Origin: an uncultured Apibacter sp.
GTDB taxonomy: Bacteria; Bacteroidota; Bacteroidia; Flavobacteriales; Weeksellaceae
Direction of reading: 5' to 3'
DNA: 60,195 nucleotides
Assembly (NCBI GenBank): GCA_945280365.1
Contig: CALYQD010000015.1
Span: forward strand, 1-60,195
The notes beneath the pieces are model-generated. The model did no database searches. It saw only the letters and a list, made by a program, of their open reading frames with translations, and was not told the origin of the DNA. The stretch's first letter is position 1, and each line of letters begins with the position of its first letter. A program made the position numbers and the translations under genes. Of this stretch, positions 28,029 to 55,065 are shown one piece after another.

Positions 28029-28700
28029 TTACTTTTTAGCATATAAAACTGCGAAGTCGTAATATTTATAAAGACAATCAACCTCTTTAAATCCTGCACT
28101 TTTAAGCCAATTTAATTGCTCTAGCAAAGGACTCCTTTTATCTAACTTTATTCGTTCAAAGCAAGCCTCAATTGCTTCTTGAGCTAAGCCACTTTTTTCA
28201 ATATACGCTCTCCATAATCTGTCATAAAGTGTAGAAAAAAATTCATCATTTCCCGCAATTTGTTCTGCATTTATAAATACACCGTTTTCCTTAAGATAGG
28301 AAAATATGGAATTATAAAGTTTAATTTTATCAAAATCCTCTAAATGATGAATTGCTAAAGAGGATACCACCGCATCGAAAGGTTGAGTTACTGTTAACGT
28401 GGTAAAATTCTGACAGATTATTTTAATATTAGGATTATTAATAAATCTATTTTTGGCAACTTCCAGCATCTTTTCAGAAAAATCAACTAAAGTGATTTTA
28501 GCTTTAGGATATTTTTGTAAAATAAATTCAGATAATAATCCGGTACCTGCTCCGATATCTAGGATTTCAGGGGAAGAAGTTGAAAGATTTATATTTTCTA
28601 CCGTAATCTGATAAAAATCGTCAAAACAAGGAATTAATTTCTTTCTTTGTTGATCGTATTGATGTGCGACGGAATTAAATTTGGATTGAATAGTTTTCAT
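28029..28700 (-). CDS. Class I SAM-dependent methyltransferase inside the ilv operon
   Basis: A 223-residue methyltransferase. Motif I is EILDIGAGTGLLSEF (about 46-60), motif II 'ITLVDFSEKMLEVA', motif IV 'FDAVVSSLAIHHL'. The substrate is not recognisable; there are loose similarities to the CmoA and BioC types but nothing decisive. Its place is odd: it separates ilvB (10 bases upstream) from ilvN (4 bases downstream), two genes for subunits of one enzyme that are normally adjacent. It has no promoter or terminator of its own and must be co-expressed with branched-chain amino acid synthesis. Confidence 0.85.
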   Translation of the reverse strand: MKTIQSKFNSVAHQYDQQRKKLIPCFDDFYQITVENINLSTSSPEILDIGAGTGLLSEFILQKYPKAKITLVDFSEKMLEVAKNRFINNPNIKIICQNFTTLTVTQPFDAVVSSLAIHHLEDFDKIKLYNSIFSYLKENGVFINAEQIAGNDEFFSTLYDRLWRAYIEKSGLAQEAIEACFERIKLDKRSPLLEQLNWLKSAGFKEVDCLYKYYDFAVLYAKK

Positions 28701-30447: not shown

Positions 30448-32274
30448 TTATATTATTCTTACTGCACCTAAATCCGCTGAGCTAACCATACTAGCGTATG
30501 CTTTTAATGCTTTTGAAATTTTACGTTCTCTGTTGGGTTTAAATGCTTCGTTACCTTTTGAATATTCTTGATTCCTTCGAAATTCCAGTTCTTCATCGGA
30601 TATTTTAACGTTAATAGAACGATTAGGAATATCAATTTCAATAATATCTCCGTCTTCTACCAAACCTATGGCTCCTCCGGCTGCAGCTTCAGGGGAAACA
30701 TGTCCTATGGATAAACCGGAAGTTCCTCCTGAAAATCTTCCGTCAGTAATTAAAGCGCATTCTTTTCCTAAATGTTTTGATTTTATATAGGAAGTAGGGT
30801 AGAGCATCTCTTGCATTCCTGGGCCTCCTTTTGGACCTTCATAGGTAATGATTACGACATCGCCGGACTGAACTTTTCCTGATAAAATTCCTTCGCAAGC
30901 AGCATCTTGTGATTGAAATACTTTTGCCGTACCTGTAAATTTAAATATGCTTTCGTCTACTCCCGCCGTTTTTACCACACATCCGTTTAAAGCTATATTA
31001 CCTTTTAATATAGCTAACCCACCGTCTTTAGTGTAAGCATGTTCCATATCTCGAATACATCCTTCAGATCGATCGGTATCAAGGGTAGGATAGGCTGAAT
31101 TTTGTGATCCCATTACTAAATTAAACTTATTCCCAGGAGCTGATTTATATAAATTTAATGCTTCTTGATTAGGAGCTTCCGTAGTTATATCATATTTTTC
31201 TATTGCTTGTTTTAATGTATAACCGTCAATTCGGTAGGTAGAGGTATTGATTAAATTTGATTTAGCTAATTCATTCAAAATACCCATAATACCACCGGCT
31301 CGATTTACATCTTGAATATGGTATTTTGTTGTATTCGGAGCAACTTTACATAGACAAGGTATTTTTCTAGATAAGGAATCTATATCGTCCATAGTGAATT
31401 CCACCTGTGCCTCATTTGCGATGGCTAAAAGATGAAGGATTGTATTCGTAGATCCACCCATAGCAATATCTAAAGCCATAGAATTGAGGAAAGCCTGTTT
31501 CGTAGCAATACTTCTTGGCAATATGGAATCATCTCCATCACGATAATATTTGTAAGCATTTTTTACAATCAAGGCAGCGGCATCTTTAAATAGTTTTTTT
31601 CTATTTTCATGGGTTGCTACTATGGTGCCATTTCCGGGCAAGGCTAATCCGATTGCTTCATTTAAGCAGTTCATAGAATTTGCTGTGAACATACCAGAGC
31701 AAGAACCACAAGTAGGACAAGCAGATCGTTCAATGGCATTGACTTCTTTGTCTGATACAGTGGAATCTGCAGATTTAATCATAGCATCAATTAGATCTAA
31801 ATGTTGATGATTTAATTCTCCTGCTTCCATAGGTCCACCGGAAACGAAAATAGTTGGAATATTTAATCGCATAGAAGCCATGAGCATACCAGGTGTTATT
31901 TTATCACAATTGCTTATACATATCATTGCATCAGCTTTGTGAGCATTTACCATATATTCAACACTATCAGCAATTAAATCTCTAGAAGGAAGAGAATATA
32001 ACATTCCGTCGTGTCCCATAGCAATACCATCATCTATGGCAATGGTATTAAATTCAGCAGCAAAACATCCTAATGCTTCTATTTCCGATTTTACAAATTG
32101 TCCTATTTGATGTAAATGCACATGCCCGGGTACGAATTGGGTAAATGAATTGACGATTGCAATCAAAGGTTTACCCATTTGTTCCTCCTGCATTCCGTTT
32201 GCTCTCCATAGAGCGCGGGCTCCAGCCATTCTTCTACCATGGGTACTGGTGTGACTTCTTAACTGGTTTTTCAT
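30448..32274 (-). CDS. ilvD: Dihydroxy-acid dehydratase
   Basis: A 608-residue iron-sulfur dehydratase, the third common step of valine and isoleucine synthesis. The cluster-binding cysteines are in '[13 protein letters not shown]' and '[18 protein letters not shown]', and '[22 protein letters not shown]' marks the C-terminal domain. First structural gene of the operon, preceded by a leader peptide and an attenuator-type terminator, so it is very likely controlled by supply of charged branched-chain tRNAs. Confidence 0.97.
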
Positions 32275-32308
32275 TTTTTTAGTTTATTTTTGTTTCTTTA
32301 TAAAATTA

Positions 32309-32339
32309 AAGCCCTTTCCTTAATAGGGAGAAAGGGCTT
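32309..32339 (-). terminator. Attenuator hairpin of the ilvD operon
   Basis: Minus-strand hairpin, arms AAGCCCTTTC and GAAAGGGCTT (10 bp), followed by a T-rich run, located between the leader peptide stop (32388) and the ilvD start. CTCCC in its 11-base loop can pair with GGGAG in the stretch just after the leader stop (GGGGGAGGG), giving a possible antiterminator. Read with the leader peptide this is the attenuator. Confidence 0.8.
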
Positions 32340-32387
32340 ATGATATTTTATAACTACAATAGATTCTACTAACATCCCTCCCCCTGA

Positions 32388-32444
32388 TTAACAAATATTG
32401 ACCAGAATGAGGTTTAATAAGAGTATGTAGTTTAAATGAGACAT
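32388..32444 (-). CDS. Leader peptide of the ilvD operon
   Basis: An 18-codon frame, MSHLNYILLLNLILVNIC, opening about 35 bases after the predicted transcription start and ending 48 bases before the terminator hairpin. Eleven... counted conservatively, six Leu, three Ile and one Val make up more than half the peptide, exactly the three end products of the pathway, with a block of three Leu at residues 8-10. The codons include TTA, CTC, CTG, ATA and ATT. This is the hallmark of a ribosome-mediated attenuation leader. No protein function beyond being translated is expected. Confidence 0.85.
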   Translation of the reverse strand: MSHLNYILLLNLILVNIC

Positions 32445-32838: not shown

Positions 32839-33909
32839 TTATGAATTTTGGATATAATTAACAATCCATTTTCCAACTTCAGTGGTTGAATAAGCTTTTC
32901 CCTCGAAAGCGATATCTTCTGTTACAATTTTTTGTTCCATAGAAGCATCTACCGCTTTTCTAATCAAAGCACCTTCCTTTTTTAAATCAAAAGCATATTC
33001 GAACATCAAGGCAGCGGAAAGTATGGTAGCAAGTGGATTTGCTATATTTTTCCCTGCTGCTTGTGGATAAGAGCCATGTATAGGTTCGAAAACAGAAGTA
33101 TGAATGCCGATTGAAGCTGAAGGTAACATTCCCAAAGATCCTGTAATAACGGAAGCCTCATCTGTTAAAATATCTCCAAATAGGTTTTCAGTTACCAATA
33201 CATCAAAACGTTTCGGCCATTGAATAATTTGCATTGCAGCATTATCAACAAACATGTATTCAGTTTCAATATCTGGAAATTCTTTTTCAATCTCCTGAGA
33301 AACTTGCCTCCATAGACGAGATGAGCAAAGCACATTTGCTTTATCAACTATAGTAAGTTTTTTATTTCGCTGTCCAGCTAATTTATAGGCTAATCTAACT
33401 ATTCTTTCAATTTCCTCTCTAGTATAAACGCAAGTATCATAAGCGGTATTTCCGTCTTCACTTCTTCCTTGAGGTCTTCCAAAATATAAACCTCCCGTTA
33501 ATTCTCTGACACACATAAAATCTGCACCTTCAACTAAGTCAGGTCGTAAAGGGGATTTATGTATTAGTGAAGGAAACGTATTGATAGGGCGAAGGTTTGC
33601 ATATAAACCAAGATCTTTTCTCATTTTCAATAATCCTTGTTCCGGACGAACTTTGGCAGAAGGATTATTGTCATATTTTGGATCTCCGATTGCCCCAAAA
33701 AGAACAGCGTCTGAATTCATACAAAGTTCATGAGTCTCCTGCGGATAAGGATTTCCGGTTTTGTCAATTGCAATTGCTCCTACTAACGCTTCTTTATAGG
33801 CAAGCTCATGATTAAATTTGGCACATATAGCTTTAGTTACATCTAAAGCCTGAGCAATAATCTCAGGGCCAATTCCATCTCCCGGTAATACGGCTATATT
33901 TAATTTCAT
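32839..33909 (-). CDS. leuB: 3-isopropylmalate dehydrogenase
   Basis: A 356-residue decarboxylating dehydrogenase. '[10 protein letters not shown]' at the start, '[13 protein letters not shown]' in the middle and '[27 protein letters not shown]' mark the isopropylmalate type, as does '[18 protein letters not shown]' at the nucleotide site. The same enzyme could oxidise 3-methylmalate for isoleucine if the adjacent gene makes citramalate. Last gene of the leu operon, 82 bases after the cimA-like gene. Confidence 0.96.
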
Positions 33910-33991: not shown

Positions 33992-35503
33992 TCAATGTAA
34001 ATTTTCAATAATGTTCAACATTTTTTCAGTTGCTTTAATGGCAGCTTCGGTTTGGTCAGCATCCAATCCTCTGGTTTTAAATTCATAGTTATTGAGCTTC
34101 CAAGATATAACGGTTTGAACTAAAGCATCTGTTTGCCCTCCGGGAGGAATAATTACTTTGTAATTAGTAAGAATGGGTTTGGCTTTATTTAATTTTTCAT
34201 ATATAAGGCTGATCGCCTCGGAAAAAGCGTCATACTGTCCATCTCCAGATGCAGTTTGTTCATATGTTTTACCATCTATTTCCATTCTTATAGAGGCGGT
34301 TGGGTGCAGACCTTTACTTAAAACTAATGCATACGAAAGAATTTTTACTTTCTTTTCATTTTCATTAGTGTTTAAAACATCGGATATGATAAAGGGGAGG
34401 TCTTCCTGTGTAATAATCTCTTTTCTATCTCCTAATTCAATCACGCGATTGGTCACCTTGATCATATCTTTTTCATCGAGTTCTATGCCTAAAGCCTCTA
34501 TATTTTTTTTAATGTTAGCTTTTCCTGATAATTTACCTAAAGCATATTCTCTGATACGACCGAATCTATTCGGATGAAGATCATTGTAATAAAGATTGTT
34601 TTTATTGTCTCCGTCAGCATGAATTCCTGCAGTTTGTGTAAAAACATTTTCGCCTATTACTGGTTGGTTAGAAGAAATATTTTGTCCCGAATAAGTCTCT
34701 ACTACGCGACTTACTTTATTTAACATAAATTCTTTAACGGAGGTCTTTATTTTCATTTGATCATGAAGAACAGCAATTACGCTAGGTAATGGTGCATTTC
34801 CCGCTCTTTCTCCTAATCCATTCATGGTTACATGAATACCATGGATTCCTGAATCTACAGCAGCCATTACATTAGCCACAGCTAAGTCATAATCATTGTG
34901 AGCATGAAAATCAAAATGAATATCGGGATAACGATTTACTATTTCAGTACAAAAAAGTTTCGTGTTATTCGGATTTAGTATTCCTAAGGTATCAGGAAGC
35001 ATAAAACGTTTAATGGGAAGACTTTTAAGATTATCGAGCATAAAAAATACGTAATCTTTTGAATGGATCATTCCATTAGACCAATCTTCAAGATATATAT
35101 TAACGGATATATTCATAGATTGCGCTAGTAAAATATCATGCTTAATATCCTCTAAATGTTGCTGAGGAGTTTTACGTAATTGCTCTGTTACATGTTTTAG
35201 CGAGCCTTTAGTTAGTAAATTTATTATTTTACACCCGGAATCTTTTATCCAACGTAAAGAGGCTCCTTTATCTACAAATCCTAATATTTCCAATTTTTCC
35301 AAGTTTCCGGAGCTTTCTGCCCAAGAAGCTATTTTTTTAACGGTCAGAAACTCTCCTTCAGAAACTTTGGCAGAAGCAATTTCCAATCGGTTTATTCCCA
35401 TGTCTATGAGTAGACGGGCAACGCTTAACTTCTCCTGCATTGAAAATGAAACTCCGGAAGTTTGCTCTCCGTCACGGAGAGTGGTATCCATAATTTCTAT
35501 CAT
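33992..35503 (-). CDS. 2-isopropylmalate synthase paralogue, probable (R)-citramalate synthase
   Basis: A 503-residue member of the LeuA/CimA family: TIM-barrel start '[23 protein letters not shown]', metal site 'HFDFHAHNDYDLAVAN' and 'HVTMNGLGERAGNAPL', and a C-terminal LeuA dimer-type regulatory domain (about 380-500). A true leuA heads the same operon, so this second copy likely has another acceptor. Pyruvate, giving citramalate for isoleucine, is the best guess, since no threonine deaminase gene is seen and leuC, leuD and leuB, which would process citramalate, surround it. A second isopropylmalate synthase is the alternative. Confidence 0.75.
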   Translation of the reverse strand: MIEIMDTTLRDGEQTSGVSFSMQEKLSVARLLIDMGINRLEIASAKVSEGEFLTVKKIASWAESSGNLEKLEILGFVDKGASLRWIKDSGCKIINLLTKGSLKHVTEQLRKTPQQHLEDIKHDILLAQSMNISVNIYLEDWSNGMIHSKDYVFFMLDNLKSLPIKRFMLPDTLGILNPNNTKLFCTEIVNRYPDIHFDFHAHNDYDLAVANVMAAVDSGIHGIHVTMNGLGERAGNAPLPSVIAVLHDQMKIKTSVKEFMLNKVSRVVETYSGQNISSNQPVIGENVFTQTAGIHADGDNKNNLYYNDLHPNRFGRIREYALGKLSGKANIKKNIEALGIELDEKDMIKVTNRVIELGDRKEIITQEDLPFIISDVLNTNENEKKVKILSYALVLSKGLHPTASIRMEIDGKTYEQTASGDGQYDAFSEAISLIYEKLNKAKPILTNYKVIIPPGGQTDALVQTVISWKLNNYEFKTRGLDADQTEAAIKATEKMLNIIENLH

Positions 35504-35578: not shown

Positions 35579-36175
35579 TTAATATTGAAAAATACGTTTT
35601 TTTTCATACTCTTCGATTTTATCTTTTTTTGATAGTAGATAATCAATATCGTCAAGTCCTTGAATAAGACATTCTTTTTTGTAAGAATTTATGTCAAAAA
35701 TTTCAGTTTTTCCCGTTTTATTATTTGTGATAGATTGCTTTTCAAGATCTATCGTAATAGTATTTTTAGGGTCCGAATGGATGCTTTCAAAAAGATCCGA
35801 TAAAAACTCCGGGCTAACTACTACTGGAAGTAAGCCGTTGTTTAGAGAGTTGTTCTTAAAAATATCTGCAAAATAGCTGGAAACAACCGCACGAAATCCA
35901 TAACCTGATACAGCCCAAGCAGCATGTTCTCTACTTGATCCGCTTCCGAAATTTTTTCCTGCTACTAAAATTGTACCACTGTAGGTAGGATTATTTAATA
36001 CAAAATCTGGTTTTGGATTTCCGCTTTTATCATATCTCCAATCTGCGAATAAGTTATCACCAAATCCTTCTTTATTCGTTGCTTTTAAGAATCGTGCCGG
36101 TATTATTTGGTCTGTATCCACATTTTCTATTGGAAGTGGAATGTATGTTGATGTTATCGTTTTAAATTTTTCCAT
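35579..36175 (-). CDS. leuD: 3-isopropylmalate dehydratase small subunit
   Basis: A 198-residue swivel domain of the isopropylmalate isomerase. 'PIENVDTDQIIPARFLK' and 'GKNFGSGSSREHAAWAVSGYGFRAVVSSYFADIFKNN' are diagnostic. It forms the active enzyme with LeuC, whose gene ends 16 bases upstream. Confidence 0.96.
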   Translation of the reverse strand: MEKFKTITSTYIPLPIENVDTDQIIPARFLKATNKEGFGDNLFADWRYDKSGNPKPDFVLNNPTYSGTILVAGKNFGSGSSREHAAWAVSGYGFRAVVSSYFADIFKNNSLNNGLLPVVVSPEFLSDLFESIHSDPKNTITIDLEKQSITNNKTGKTEIFDINSYKKECLIQGLDDIDYLLSKKDKIEEYEKKRIFQY

Positions 36176-36191: not shown

Positions 36192-37586
36192 TTAGTTTAA
36201 TTTTCTAGGATCGGTTATTTTTCCGGTTACAGCGGCTGCTGCAGCTACCAATGGACTGGCTAAAATAGTTCTGGCGCCGGGTCCTTGTCTTCCTTCAAAG
36301 TTTCTATTAGTGGTAGAAACCGCATATTTTCCTGCTGGAACTTTGTCATCATTCATAGCAAGACATGCAGAACAACCGGGTTGACGTATTTCGAATCCTG
36401 CTTCTTCTAAAATGTCATACAAACCTTCATCGATAAGTTGTTGAGCAACTCGATGACTTCCGGGAACTAACCATGCTGTAACATTTTCTGCTTTTTTCTT
36501 ACCCTTAACAAAATTTGCAAAAGTTCTAAAATCTTCAATTCTTCCATTAGTGCAACTTCCTATAAACACATAGTCTATAGGCTTTCCTTCCATTTTTTCT
36601 CCTGGATTGAAGCCCATATAATTCAATGATTTTATAAAAGAAATTTTACCTGTTTCATCCAACCCTTCTAATGTTGGTATAGATCCGGTTATTGAAACCC
36701 CCATACCTGGATTGGTCCCGTAAGTAACCATAGGTTCAATTTTAGAAGCGTCAAATGTATATTCTTTATCGAATTTAGCTCCTTCATCTGTTTTTAGAGT
36801 TTTCCAATATTCGATAGCTTCATTCCATTTATCTCCTTTAGGAGCAAAGTCTTTACCTTTAAGATATTCGAATGTTGTTTCATCAGGAGCAATTAACCCT
36901 CCACGTGCTCCCATTTCGATGCTTAAATTACAAAGGGTCATTCTTTGTTCCATGTTTAGATTTCGAATTGCTTCACCCGCATATTCAACAAAATATCCGG
37001 TAGCTCCTCCCGTAGTAAGGGTTGAAATCATAAATAATGCTAAATCTTTAGCGGTAACTCCGTCACTTAAAGATCCATTAAAGTTAATTCTCATGGTTTT
37101 AGGTCTACTTTGAAGAATACATTGAGTAGCTAATACCATTTCAACTTCACTGGTTCCTATTCCAAAAGCAATAGCTCCAAAAGCACCATGAGTAGAAGTA
37201 TGGCTATCTCCACAAACTATAGTCATACCCGGTTGGGTATATCCATTTTCCGGTCCGATGATATGAACTACTCCATTTCTTTCGTTTCCAAGTGCATATA
37301 ATGTAAGTCCAAATTCTTCTGCATTTTTAGAAAGTGTATCTAATTGTTTTTTGGATATAGGGTCTTTTACCGGCTGATCTTGATTGCAGGTTGGTGTATT
37401 ATGGTCAGCAGTAAGTGTGGTTTGTTCTGGTCTGAAAACCTTTAATCCTCTTTCTCTTAGTCCGTTGAAGGCTTGAGGGCTGGTAACTTCATGGCAAAAA
37501 TGCCTATCTATATATAATTGGGTAGGCCCATCTTGTATAGAAGTAACCGTATGAGCATCCCAAATTTTGTCAAAAAGTGTTTTCAT
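36192..37586 (-). CDS. leuC: 3-isopropylmalate dehydratase large subunit
   Basis: A 464-residue aconitase-family protein carrying a 4Fe-4S cluster. The ligands lie in '[14 protein letters not shown]' and '[14 protein letters not shown]'; '[31 protein letters not shown]' is the other signature. Acts with LeuD on 2-isopropylmalate, and probably on citramalate in this organism. Placed 37 bases after leuA. Confidence 0.97.
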
Positions 37587-37623: not shown

Positions 37624-39114
37624 TTAAACGGTAAATTTATTTATAGCGTCAATATAGGCTTCCACAGAAGCAGTAACAATATCTGTATTTGCTGCAAAGC
37701 CATAATAGTTTTTGCCATTATATTCTACTTGCATATGTACTTTCCCTAAATCATCGCTTCCTTTATTAATAGCTTGAATTAAAAATTCATGAATAGTCAT
37801 TTGTTTTTTGAGTATTTCTTTAACTGTATTGATAGCTGCGTCGACAGGACCGTTTCCGAAGGAAGTAGAGGTGAATTTTTCTCCGGCAATATCTAAGGTA
37901 ACAATCGCTGCATTTTTAACGCCTTTACCAGATGTAACTTGTAGAAAATCCAATTTAATACGATTGCTTTCATTCGGTTCTTTTCCAACAAGAATTAATA
38001 GGTCATCGTCGTTAATATCTTTCTTTTTGTCAGCTAATTCTAAAAATCGTTCATAGATAGTGGTTAATTCATTTGATTCAACTTTAATTCCCAATAAGTT
38101 TAATCTGTTTTTAAGAGCATGGCGTCCACTACGGGCTGTTAAAACGATTGCGTTGTCATCAATACCTACTTCTTTAGGGTCTATAATTTCATAGGTTGAA
38201 AGGTTTTTCAATACGCCGTCCTGATGTATTCCAGAGGAATGAGCAAATGCATTTCTTCCAACAATTGCCTTATTGGGTTGGATAGGCATATTCATTAAGC
38301 TGGAAACCATTTTACTTACAGGATATAATTTTTTGGTATTAATACTTGTCTCTATAGCTAATTCCTTGTGGCTTTTAATTGCCATAACAACTTCTTCTAG
38401 AGAAGTATTTCCTGCACGTTCACCAATTCCATTCATGGTAACTTCCACTTGTCTAGCCCCATTTATAACTCCCATAAGAGAATTGGCAGTTGCCATTCCT
38501 AAATCTTGATGACAATGTGTAGATAAAATGGCGTTTTTCATATCCACATGTTCCATCAGATATTTTATCTTTTCTCCATATTCCGTAGGAAGGCAATAAC
38601 CGGTAGTATCAGGGATATTTATTACTGTTGCTCCTGCATTTATAACTGCCTGAACCACTTTGGCTAAATATTCATTGTCTGTTCTTCCGGCATCTTCAGC
38701 ATAGAATTCTACGTCTTCAACAAATTTTTTAGCATAGGCGGTTGCTGCAACAGCTCTTTTGATTATTTCCTCTCGAGTAGAATTAAATTTATATTTAATA
38801 TGGTAATCGGAAGTTCCAATTCCTGTATGTATTCTTTTTTTCTTCGCATATTTAAGAGCATCGGCTGCTACTTCTATGTCTTTTTCTACAGCGCGAGTTA
38901 GAGCGCAGATGGTTGGTCTTGTTACTGCTTTGGAAATGGCTTCTACTGAGCTAAAATCTCCAGGACTTGAAATCGGGAAACCGGCTTCAATAACATCTAC
39001 TCCTAATTCTTCTAATGCTTTAGCAACTTCTATTTTTTCAATTGTATTTAACTGACACCCGGGTACCTGTTCTCCATCCCGTAAAGTAGTGTCGAAAATG
39101 AATAATTTATCCAT
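37624..39114 (-). CDS. leuA: 2-isopropylmalate synthase
   Basis: A 496-residue synthase that starts the leucine branch from 2-oxoisovalerate and acetyl-CoA. '[21 protein letters not shown]', '[16 protein letters not shown]' and '[22 protein letters not shown]' are the catalytic signatures; the C-terminal 115 residues form the leucine-binding allosteric domain. First structural gene of the leu operon, preceded by a leader peptide and an attenuator hairpin, so both feedback inhibition and attenuation by leucine are likely. Confidence 0.96.
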
Positions 39115-39149
39115 CTTTATATCGTTTTCTTTTGTGATTAATAAACAAT

Positions 39150-39185
39150 AAAAAGCCTTTCCCCTTGGAGTGAGAAAGGCTTTTT
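39150..39185 (-). terminator. Attenuator hairpin of the leuA operon
   Basis: Minus-strand stem of 12 bp, AAAAAGCCTTTC with GAAAGGCTTTTT, between the leader peptide and leuA. Its left side contains CTCACTC (39168-39174), which is fully complementary to GAGTGAG overlapping the last codons of the leader peptide (39217-39223): a 7-bp candidate antiterminator. Confidence 0.82.
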
Positions 39186-39213
39186 ATATTTTGTATAATT
39201 TACAACATAAGCG

Positions 39214-39276
39214 TTACTCACTCTGAGTTTTACCCAGAATCAGAATAATGCTAATTATGTTAGTAAACAATGACAT
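39214..39276 (-). CDS. Leader peptide of the leuA operon
   Basis: A 20-codon frame, MSLFTNIISIILILGKTQSE, starting about 25 bases after the predicted transcription start. Five Ile and three Leu are packed into residues 3-14. The stop lies 28 bases before the terminator hairpin, and the last codons (AGT GAG) belong to the sequence that can pair with the terminator arm. The ilvD leader also begins with MS. This is the expected form of a ribosome-sensing leader for branched-chain amino acids; Ile being more frequent than Leu is slightly odd for a leu operon but fits if the operon also makes isoleucine through citramalate. Confidence 0.82.
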   Translation of the reverse strand: MSLFTNIISIILILGKTQSE

Positions 39277-39584
39277 TCGTTTTATTAATTATAATTGGCC
39301 GCTAAATTATGATAATTTTTCTAATTACCAAAATAAATTTTATAAAAAATATTTTTACTTTATATTGATTTCAATAATTAAAGTACTATTTTTTTTTGAA
39401 ATAAATGAAATATTATGTTCATATATATACTAAAAAAATAGTTTGAATAATCTATTTTTCATCTATTATTCAAAAAAATGAATTAAGAAAAGAGTAAATA
39501 TAAAATATAGTATGAACTTTGATTTTATCAAAAATACACATGTTTGAGATAATTATATCAAAAAAAAATTGTTTTTTAATTTTT
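39277..39584. other. AT-rich spacer with the leuA promoter
   Basis: Contains the leuA promoter at 39302-39331 and otherwise only AT-rich sequence between leuA and the ABC-protein gene. No gene seen. Confidence 0.45.
39302..39331 (-). promoter_or_regulatory. leuA operon promoter
   Basis: TTG (39329-39331), 19-base spacer, TAATTTAG (39302-39309): one mismatch to the Bacteroidota pattern. The start of transcription would fall about 25 bases before the leader peptide. Confidence 0.65.
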
Positions 39585-41027
39585 TTATTGTTTAGTTAAA
39601 ATAAGTTCATGATTTATACTTGTTGGTATTTCGTTTTTCTGATGGGTAACATAAATTAATGATTTATGGAAATCACAAAATTCTTCGATAATTCGTAATA
39701 CGCGAGATTTATTGCCCATGTCTAATCCATGTAAGGGTTCATCGAGAATTACAAGAGATGGATTTTTTACAAAAACGCGTGCTAAGAGTACTAGACGCTG
39801 CTCTCCGGTTGATACAGTAAGAAAAGATACGTTTTTTAACTTTTCTATGTGTAAGGCCTCCATCCATTGTATAGATATTTTTTTTTGCTCGTCGTTACAT
39901 TTTCTATATAGTCCAATGGTATCAAAAAAACCTGAACCAATTACTTCAAGACAGCTTATATTTTTTTGATAATATAGATGCATTTCCGGAGAAACATAGC
40001 CAATATGTTTTTTTATATCCCAAATACTTTCTCCTGTTCCTCGTTTTTTATCGAATAAAATTATATCATTGGCATAAGCTTGAGGATTGTCGGCTGCTAT
40101 TACACTTAATAAAGTGGATTTTCCAGATCCGTTAGGTCCGGATAATAGCCATTTTTCACCTTTTACAACTTTCCAAGATAAATCTTTTAGAATTGTCCTA
40201 TTTCCATAACGGATGTTTATATGGTTTAATAATAGTGCATTTTTGTAATTGTTTTGATTGTTTTGGTTTTCAAAGTTTGGAAGAAACTTTTTATCATTTA
40301 AACTTATAGTGAATAAAGTATTTTGTAATTTTTTGTCGGTTAAAAAATCATTTATACTTAGACTATCTAATATTTCTTTGTTTTTAATAGGTAAGATATG
40401 CGTAATAATAGGGGAGATATCGTAAAGATCCGAAATAAGAAGTACTATTTGTACATTTTTTAGATTTTTTAGATTTTGAAAAACCTCTTCTAAAACTTGT
40501 TTTGCTTGAATATCCAATCCAATAAATGGATTATCCAAAATTAATATTCTGGGTTGGGTAGACAAAGTTTGTATAATTAAAAATTTCCTTAGCTCTCCAC
40601 TGGAAAGAAGATCTATATTCTTTTCAATTAAATCTTCAATTCTGAATGTTTCGATTAAATATTTTATCCATTTTAAGTCAGCATTTTTAAACAAAATATC
40701 TTTTACTTTTGGTGTATCATCATTTAATCCGATATTCCATCTTTGTTGATAATAACTATCTTGGGTTTTGGTAAATGAATAAATATTTCGAAAAGCGACC
40801 ACTTTAATGTAATTACTTAAGCAAGTCTTTTTTTCTTTATAAAGAATCTTTCCTTCTTTTAAAGCATATTTTCCGAATAAAATATCGATAAGTAGGGATT
40901 TGCCTGATCCGTTGGGACCAATAATTGCCCAATGTTGCGAGGAGTTAATTTTCCAGTTGATTGGTTGGGAGAATCTTACAGTTTCATTTTGTGGAATTAT
41001 ATTTTCTAATTTTAGTAATGTATCCAT
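39585..41027 (-). CDS. ModF-like double ABC ATPase
   Basis: A 480-residue protein made of two ABC ATPase domains and no membrane segment. Walker A sites are GPNGSGKS at 37-44 and again near 294-301; ABC signatures are LSSGELRKFLI and VSTGEQRLVLLARVF; Walker B 'LDNPFIGLD' and 'LDEPLHGLD'. The first signature, LSSGE, is close to the consensus. The architecture and length match E. coli ModF (PhrA), an ATPase linked to molybdate transport genes, but no transport gene is adjacent. Could also be a ribosome-associated ABC-F-like protein, though the linker typical of those is absent. Confidence 0.8.
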   Translation of the reverse strand: MDTLLKLENIIPQNETVRFSQPINWKINSSQHWAIIGPNGSGKSLLIDILFGKYALKEGKILYKEKKTCLSNYIKVVAFRNIYSFTKTQDSYYQQRWNIGLNDDTPKVKDILFKNADLKWIKYLIETFRIEDLIEKNIDLLSSGELRKFLIIQTLSTQPRILILDNPFIGLDIQAKQVLEEVFQNLKNLKNVQIVLLISDLYDISPIITHILPIKNKEILDSLSINDFLTDKKLQNTLFTISLNDKKFLPNFENQNNQNNYKNALLLNHINIRYGNRTILKDLSWKVVKGEKWLLSGPNGSGKSTLLSVIAADNPQAYANDIILFDKKRGTGESIWDIKKHIGYVSPEMHLYYQKNISCLEVIGSGFFDTIGLYRKCNDEQKKISIQWMEALHIEKLKNVSFLTVSTGEQRLVLLARVFVKNPSLVILDEPLHGLDMGNKSRVLRIIEEFCDFHKSLIYVTHQKNEIPTSINHELILTKQ

Positions 41028-54955: not shown

Positions 54956-55065
54956 GAAATATAACCCCGTATAAATTAGGTGTCCTAGCGGTAAAAAAAT
55001 ATCGCTTGCAGTCCTTTCGGGTATTGCCACCATGTTATACGGGAAATTTTTTTACTAGTTTTCAA
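54956..55065. repeat. 110-bp palindromic insert between direct repeats
   Basis: The ends of the inner structure are CCCGTATAA (54966-54974) and TTATACGGG (55035-55043), a perfect 9-bp inverted repeat. Inside, GGTG/CACC, AGCG/CGCT and a GTCC-TTTC-GGGT hairpin can form arms, so the folded strand would resemble a small cloverleaf. GC content is clearly higher than the surroundings. No coding capacity. It may be a small non-autonomous mobile repeat or a recombination site; I believe similar sequences are dispersed in Bacteroidota, but cannot check. Confidence 0.7.

Follow-up and report, generated by a model that had tools for sequence, protein, structure and literature searches.

The leuA leader and the leu/ilv genes of the Apibacter window

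The window analysed here – the whole 60,195-nucleotide stretch of contig CALYQD010000015.1 from an uncultured Apibacter sp. (assembly GCA_945280365.1, 2.57 Mb) – carries a minus-strand run of branched-chain amino acid genes in the order leuA, leuC, leuD, citramalate-synthase-like, leuB, ilvD, ilvB, methyltransferase-like and ilvN. The first of these, leuA (37624-39114, with its ATG at 39114), encodes a 2-isopropylmalate synthase of 496 aa that exceeds the cut-offs of NF002086 (725.6 bits) and TIGR00973 (662.4 bits), and its closest named LeuA relative is that of A. mensalis (94%). Its probable operon members leuC (36192-37586, TIGR00170) and leuD (35579-36175, TIGR00171), together with leuB (32839-33909, TIGR00169) and the dihydroxy-acid dehydratase gene ilvD (30448-32274, NF009103 and TIGR00110), also score above their cut-offs, and a second LeuA-family gene at 33992-35503 is called citramalate-synthase-like from a best match to NF042433 (CimA; 647 bits) that falls below that family's cut-off of 950. 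The small methyltransferase-like gene (28029-28700, minus strand) follows ilvB and overlaps the listed start of the next ORF, ilvN. Elsewhere in the window, an Rfam c4-2 RNA match (61.6 bits; 54963-55044, minus strand) is located near two tRNA genes.

Upstream of leuA, and on the same strand, is a short leader region. A promoter-like site at 39302-39331, which we take to be of the Bacteroidota type from the promoter consensus of that phylum, is present much as the sequence-only reading had described it, with TTG at 39331-39329, 19 bases, and TAATTTAG at 39309-39302; a TAnnTTTG-like box is visible by eye upstream of many other Apibacter and Dysgonomonas leaders. It is followed by a leader ORF of 20 codons, MSLFTNIISIILILGKTQSE (39214-39276; ATG at 39276, stop TAA at 39216-39214), which is rich in Ile and Leu, and whose codons 7-14 (39235-39258; Ile Ile Ser Ile Ile Leu Ile Leu) are putative control codons. 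Near the end of this ORF, GAGTGAG (39223-39217; segment 2) is the exact complement of CTCACTC (39174-39168; segment 3), as had been claimed, and the two are the candidate 5′ and 3′ strands of an antiterminator, with segment 3 also contributing to the left arm and loop of a terminator. The intrinsic terminator itself (39150-39185) was correctly recognised in the earlier reading but is longer than the 12 bp given there, since the MFE structure has 14 pairs, including one G-U and A/U ends, with an 8-nt loop and a T5 end.

The leader folds far more stably than expected from its composition (-43.7 kcal/mol vs -20.05 +/- 2.99 in 200 shuffles, z -7.9), and its MFE structure corresponds to the termination state: segment 2 and the Ile/Leu codons are held in a 1:2 or protector hairpin (39220-39240, in which 39240-39232 pair with 39228-39220, sequestering segment 2) beside the 14-bp terminator. 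Taken in the window alone, the 7-bp complement is moderately unusual, with an equal helix found in one of 60 dinucleotide shuffles; it is conservation with compensation in relatives that raises the pairing above chance.

Antiterminator, terminator and leader frame in relatives

We compared 85 leuA upstream regions, comprising the window, 80 relatives and four further Apibacter genomes. A script blind to the antiterminator called candidate terminators in 73 of the 84 regions of sufficient length – some of them spurious hairpins far from the gene (e.g. L024, L038, L051, L068, L078 and L080) – and none in the other 11, including L089, L043, L050 and L081, where a pattern search does find a terminator. 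A helix with the terminator left arm was equalled in at most three of 60 shuffles for 51 of the 73, with 22 failing this criterion. The pattern search finds a terminator of the leuA-leader type in 72 of the 85 regions and none in 13 (among them L032, with only 67 nt), seven of which belong to a Muribaculaceae-like LeuA clade, so that the attenuator is dispensable. This clade has nine rows, of which L045, L046, L053, L060, L065, L067 and L079 are without an attenuator terminator upstream of leuA, whereas a pattern resembling a terminator is present in L071 and L076. The L053 row bears the label Lachnospiraceae but encodes a Bacteroidales LeuA, perhaps reflecting a mis-binned contig.

Seventy of the 72 pattern-positive leaders, from Apibacter and Bacteroidales, make up the helix alignment. 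RNAalifold retained just seven terminator pairs on this set, and the antiterminator was therefore counted with a named structure. The 8-pair antiterminator helix is paired in 90.9% of 538 cells, vs 35-65% when the partner is slid by one to three columns, and 41 cells are doubly changed, compared with 15.8 +/- 2.7 in shuffled alignments. Observed values were matched in none of 500 shuffles for four of five measures, that of double-changed cells included; one shuffle in 500 matched the remaining measure, the count of pairs with double changes (six of eight). At least 11 double-change events are required on the LeuA tree, with rows having a G-U or no standard pair excluded. Compensation is seen within the genus, where GAGTGAG/CTCACTC is replaced by AGGATGAG/CTCATCCT in A. 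muscae (L005), and beyond it, with AGGAAGTGAGA/TCTCACTTCCT in Parabacteroides (L029), AAGCGAG/CTCGCTT in L039 and TTGTGGAAATGGGA/TCCCATTTCCACAA in L052. Covariation had been proposed as the check on these two 7-mers, and independent drift as the observation that would speak against their pairing; what is found is concerted change. The terminator helix is paired in 94.0% of cells (equalled by 0/500 shuffles) and has double changes in seven of its 12 pairs (3/500).

These data bear on the simplest alternative, namely that a plain terminator happens to lie behind an ORF and a complementary 7-mer that arose by chance. AT-rich intergenic DNA and the one shuffle in 60 that equals the window helix would allow for this, but compensatory changes affect six of eight pairs, as in one of 500 shuffles, and 41 cells are doubly changed, as in none of 500; the same-strand upstream ORF (39585-41027) stops some 400 nt short of the terminator, and the layout is repeated before eight other types of amino-acid synthesis gene (see below). 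Chance complementarity is rejected by the covariation, and we regard this alternative as scarcely credible.

The behaviour of the remaining helix, the protector, is more variable. A consensus fold of 27 leaders of the Apibacter/Dysgonomonas type contains it, and in folds of the 70 leaders without a ribosome it sequesters segment 2 in 47 and not in 23, with segment 2 paired to segment 3 in 22. Ribosome positions were then imposed by masking, under a rule set in this analysis that ignores kinetics: with the ribosome just 5′ of segment 2 the predicted antiterminator has at least four pairs in 68/70 leaders and at least six in 64/70, and with segment 2 covered the terminator is formed in all 70.

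The best leader frame has a mean of 8.4 Ile/Leu/Val among 17 codons across the 70 leaders, vs 4.5 in the second-best frame, with L006, L007, L011 and L021 having a second frame that is equally rich. Counted from the base at which the 8-pair helix begins, the stop codon falls between -8 and +26 nt in all 70 (the choice of frame being tied in four leaders and possibly wrong in L071); the commonest arrangement is a TGA inside AGTGAG, 4 nt into the helix (28/70), and the A. muscae peptide, MNIFTNILGIILILT, ends ahead of segment 2. Because the stop may fall before, inside or after the 7-mer, segment 2 is conserved as RNA, and the end of the peptide is not conserved; the proposal that the pairing is built into the codons of the leader peptide is thus not borne out. 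The attenuation model requires that a terminating ribosome be able to cover segment 2, which the observed stop positions would permit.

Recurrence before other amino-acid genes

A covariance model (R1) built only from the 70 leuA leaders, with no ilvD sequences, was searched against the whole Apibacter genome. Its top match is the leuA leader, itself part of the training set (E 3.6e-15), and the next is the ilvD leader (32299-32444, E 6.2e-4), in agreement with the earlier suggestion that the two share a plan. This sister attenuator, on the minus strand, has a leader ORF MSHLNYILLLNLILVNIC (32388-32444), a terminator predicted by folding at 32309-32339, and a candidate antiterminator, paired by hand, of 9 bp including three G-U between GGGGAGGGA (32383-32375) and TTTCTCCCT (32333-32325), the corresponding strands being CAGAAAAAGG/CCTTTTTCTG in a relative (L154). 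An Ile/Leu/Val-rich ilvD leader is seen in seven of nine Apibacter genomes, the gene start being mis-set, and the leader not judged, in the other two.

Across 395 genomes of the class, R1 gives 42 matches at E <= 0.001 in 34 genomes. Of the best 30 of these 42 loci, 29 precede amino-acid genes – 11 leuA (the window's own included), one ilvD, five ilvB, four ilvE, one ilvN-like, six thrA and one asnA – and the other, L139, runs into a contig end; ten representative loci were named by NCBIfam, two of them as ilvN-like with scores below that family's cut-off. The leaders differ in their codons. Those before thrA, which encodes aspartokinase/homoserine dehydrogenase, are rich in Thr and Ile (L133, L138, L140, L141, L148 and L150; e.g. 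MTTNNTIIITIITTGINLGGR), an ilvB leader is rich in Val and Ile (MNTKNNNIIVVVVSSLG), an ilvE leader reads MNTFFNLIIVIIIIGSQ, and the asnA leader is rich in Asn (MMNFYFNNNFNYATPPGGD). The asnA leader (L147, G332:C1:346707-346834) has its own terminator and lies immediately behind another terminator-like hairpin.

A second model (R2), trained on R1-derived leaders of ilvE, thrA, ilvB, ilvD, ilvN-like and asnA genes together with some of the leuA leaders, has matches at E <= 0.01 in 80 of 296 Flavobacteriales genomes. The 29 best loci outside this genome, of more than 100 listed, lie before ilvE (19), ilvN-like genes (four), ilvD (two), ilvB (two) and ilvA (two), the matches at ilvE, ilvB, ilvD and ilvN arising partly by construction, with ilvA and hisG outside the training set. 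R2 also finds a third attenuator candidate in the Apibacter genome, upstream of hisG (L195, G000:C2:109187-109314, plus strand; E 0.0016), with a His-rich leader, MIQLHFHHHYLHTYNQVR, and a pairing by hand of AATCAGGTG with CGCCTGATT. The layout therefore recurs before eight gene types other than leuA – ilvD, ilvB, ilvE, ilvN-like, ilvA, thrA, asnA and hisG. Eleven weaker own-genome matches (E >= 0.04) have no downstream ORF matching the panel of amino-acid enzymes that was the sole set compared. Both models also match the leuA terminator on its opposite strand (R1 39039-39193, plus strand, E 0.0034; R2 39087-39193, plus strand, E 0.0014), which was set aside as a symmetry artefact.

Some of these attenuators appear in tandem, one leader and terminator following another ahead of an ilvE or ilvN-like gene. 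Two same-strand matches 3-19 nt apart are present in 14 of the 80 R2-matched genomes, of which nine were read, the tandem units being at L160 (G053), L168, L174, L176, L182, L185, L186, L187 and L192. The L176 tandem resembles a recent duplication, and the others have diverged.

The leader codons fit the downstream gene at thrA, asnA, ilvE and hisG. Residues were also counted in all three frames of 58 loci, with no ORFs chosen. Thr averages 6.3 before thrA vs 1.2-3.0 before leu and ilv genes, with a count of 4 before both asnA and hisG; Asn is 6 before asnA (a single locus) vs 2.0-3.8 elsewhere, and His is 5 before hisG (also a single locus) vs 0.7-3.7 elsewhere. The corresponding Leu count, blurred by the other frames of Ile codon runs, does not mark out leuA (4.5, vs 6.5 before thrA and 8.0 before ilvA).

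Two further alternatives can be weighed at this point. The short ORF could be incidental to a metabolite- or tRNA-sensing RNA, either a riboswitch or a T-box, for which the retention of segment 2 as RNA even outside the ORF could be cited. The amino acids of the leader nonetheless vary with the downstream gene, and Rfam has no T-box or riboswitch match at gathering score in the window, with only a tRNA above gathering in 12 relatives; we consider such a sensor very unlikely. Alternatively, the ORF might encode a functional small hydrophobic membrane peptide, with the RNA structure acting on the stability or translation of the mRNA and not on termination. Many bacterial small ORFs do encode membrane peptides, and the Ile/Leu run makes the leuA leader peptide hydrophobic, yet the ends of these peptides vary freely (stops at -8 to +26) and in the thrA, asnA and hisG leaders the abundant residues are Thr, Asn and His, so that a membrane peptide is hard to entertain at all.

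Proposed attenuation, origin and relation to known systems

We conclude, with a probability of roughly 0.9, that the leader is a ribosome-mediated transcription attenuator of leuACD that would sense Ile/Leu through its leader peptide. RNA polymerase would start just 5′ of the leader ORF. With ample Ile-tRNA and Leu-tRNA, the ribosome would reach the stop and cover segment 2 (GAGUGAG), segment 3 would enter the terminator, and transcription would end; when Ile or Leu is scarce, the ribosome would stall on the AUU AUU CUG AUU CUG run and open the 1:2 hairpin, and the freed segment 2 would pair with segment 3 (CUCACUC), preventing the terminator and allowing leuACD to be transcribed. Comparison among genomes supports the predicted anatomy, with its covarying antiterminator and terminator helices, Ile/Leu-rich frame and recurrence with matching codons; from it we infer the stalling of the ribosome, the codon that decides and regulation in the cell. 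The marks of an attenuator that such a comparison can reveal – an ORF with codons of the pathway, a terminator, a covarying antiterminator and a reachable stop – all appear to be present, and the fit is good except for the protector hairpin, which is missing from roughly one in three predicted folds.

The leuA leader is present in all nine Apibacter genomes, and by eye no leader lies directly upstream of 17 other Flavobacteriales leuA loci. The Apibacter LeuA, of 496 residues, is 81-83% identical to Dysgonomonas-type rows, compared with 61-71% for non-Apibacter Flavobacteriales, and where family-mates have a match the LeuA open frame is in most cases shorter (392-408 codons). In the LeuA tree, Apibacter groups with Dysgonomonas (SH-aLRT 92), and with three more Dysgonomonadaceae-type rows added (95); in a smaller tree the same two nodes have values of 95 and only 62. 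A single clade of Apibacter LeuA with four family-mates' short LeuA was rejected (AU p 2.9e-47), as was its grouping with one long family-mate LeuA (p 1.5e-10), and placing Apibacter and all 11 Flavobacteriales of the smaller tree on one side of a branch was not rejected by the AU test (p 0.152). The order leuA, leuC, leuD is common to Bacteroidales, and leuA-leuC spacing is approximately 1.1-1.3 kb in three of the Dysgonomonas rows examined (L009, L015 and L019). Apibacter LeuA thus appears to group with Dysgonomonas (Bacteroidales) and not with its family-mates, and does not look ancestral to Flavobacteriia; this grouping, the identities, the rejected union with family-mates and the shared gene order make it likely that the leu operon and leader were acquired together by transfer, with the p of 0.152 leaving this unproven. 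The sequence-only reading had suggested a common device of the lineage, which holds for the mechanism – the same plan lies before other amino-acid genes – but probably not for the history of this leuA copy.

In Proteobacteria, attenuation through a leader peptide belongs to textbook knowledge, and enterobacterial examples control leu, ilvGMEDA, ilvBN and thr (through leuL, ilvL, ivbL and thrL). The Apibacter leader resembles these in having an ORF with putative control codons, a predicted 1:2 protector, a 2:3 antiterminator and a 3:4 terminator before an operon of the same pathway, and the thrA leaders found here combine codons for Thr and Ile, which is also the case in thrL. It differs in that the stop often lies inside segment 2 (the TGA of AGTGAG, 28/70) and in that no Rfam leader family scores above threshold: at gathering and permissive thresholds nothing exceeds a family cut-off in the leuA leader, and Rfam models caught neither the leuA nor the ilvD attenuator in the window. 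RF00506 (Thr_leader) reaches 25.4 bits vs a gathering score of 55. The Bacteroid-trp leader carries Trp codons. As Rfam RF01692 (PMC2864571), it is a leader RNA from the same phylum and gives the top-scoring match over the full model length, but at 29.3 bits vs 49 it is below gathering, and its sequence is other than that of the leuA leader.

Flavobacterium psychrophilum is presumably of the same order as Apibacter. In the parts of its transcriptome paper available to us, 'strong clues' are reported for leader-peptide attenuation before amino-acid operons, along with conserved 5′ elements that precede pheA and hisG and have no Rfam matches (PMC9723704); these resemble the present leaders in phylum and in position before amino-acid biosynthesis operons, the Apibacter hisG leader included, and by word counts of the main text alone that paper names neither 'leuA' nor 'ilv'. 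The ilvBNC attenuators of Corynebacterium, as described in the portions consulted of PMC11857589 and PMC10272879, similarly place upstream hairpins or a uORF in control of a branched-chain operon, but in a different phylum and a different operon. According to the sections seen of a 2010 survey, leader-peptide systems were known only in Proteobacteria and Actinobacteria, to which the survey added Firmicutes (PMC2965389), and the text seen on B. thetaiotaomicron leaders makes a general remark on short ORFs (PMC7366714). Within the text available from these sources, attenuators before amino-acid operons of this phylum are mentioned in PMC9723704 and not in PMC4833913, PMC7366714, PMC2965389 or PMC2864571; subscription literature was mostly outside the search, and absence from print is not implied. 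The type of mechanism is long known, and the leuA leader would add to attenuators already hinted at in Flavobacterium (PMC9723704, as far as its text was seen).

One tentative reading, which we hold to be possible rather than probable, is that these leaders descend from one homologous Bacteroidota scaffold – with a segment 2 that is rich in G and often contains a UGA stop, a left arm of pyrimidines (e.g. GCCUUUCUC) and a terminator – that has been re-aimed by exchange of control codons (Ile, Leu, Val, Thr, Asn and His), duplicated in series (ilvE and ilvN-like), and carried from one order to another along with its operon, Apibacter leuA being a case.

Bacteroidota dominate many guts, and the phylum's leader-peptide attenuation is little charted, being represented in the literature examined, as far as its text was available, by one F. 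psychrophilum paragraph and a single Rfam family. From the covarying helices and the matches of the two covariance models, candidate attenuators open to experiment can be named for genes of leucine, isoleucine/valine, threonine, asparagine and histidine synthesis. The Apibacter case suggests the transfer of an operon and its RNA switch as a unit, and the tandem arrangements invite the question of whether such attenuators follow a serial logic.
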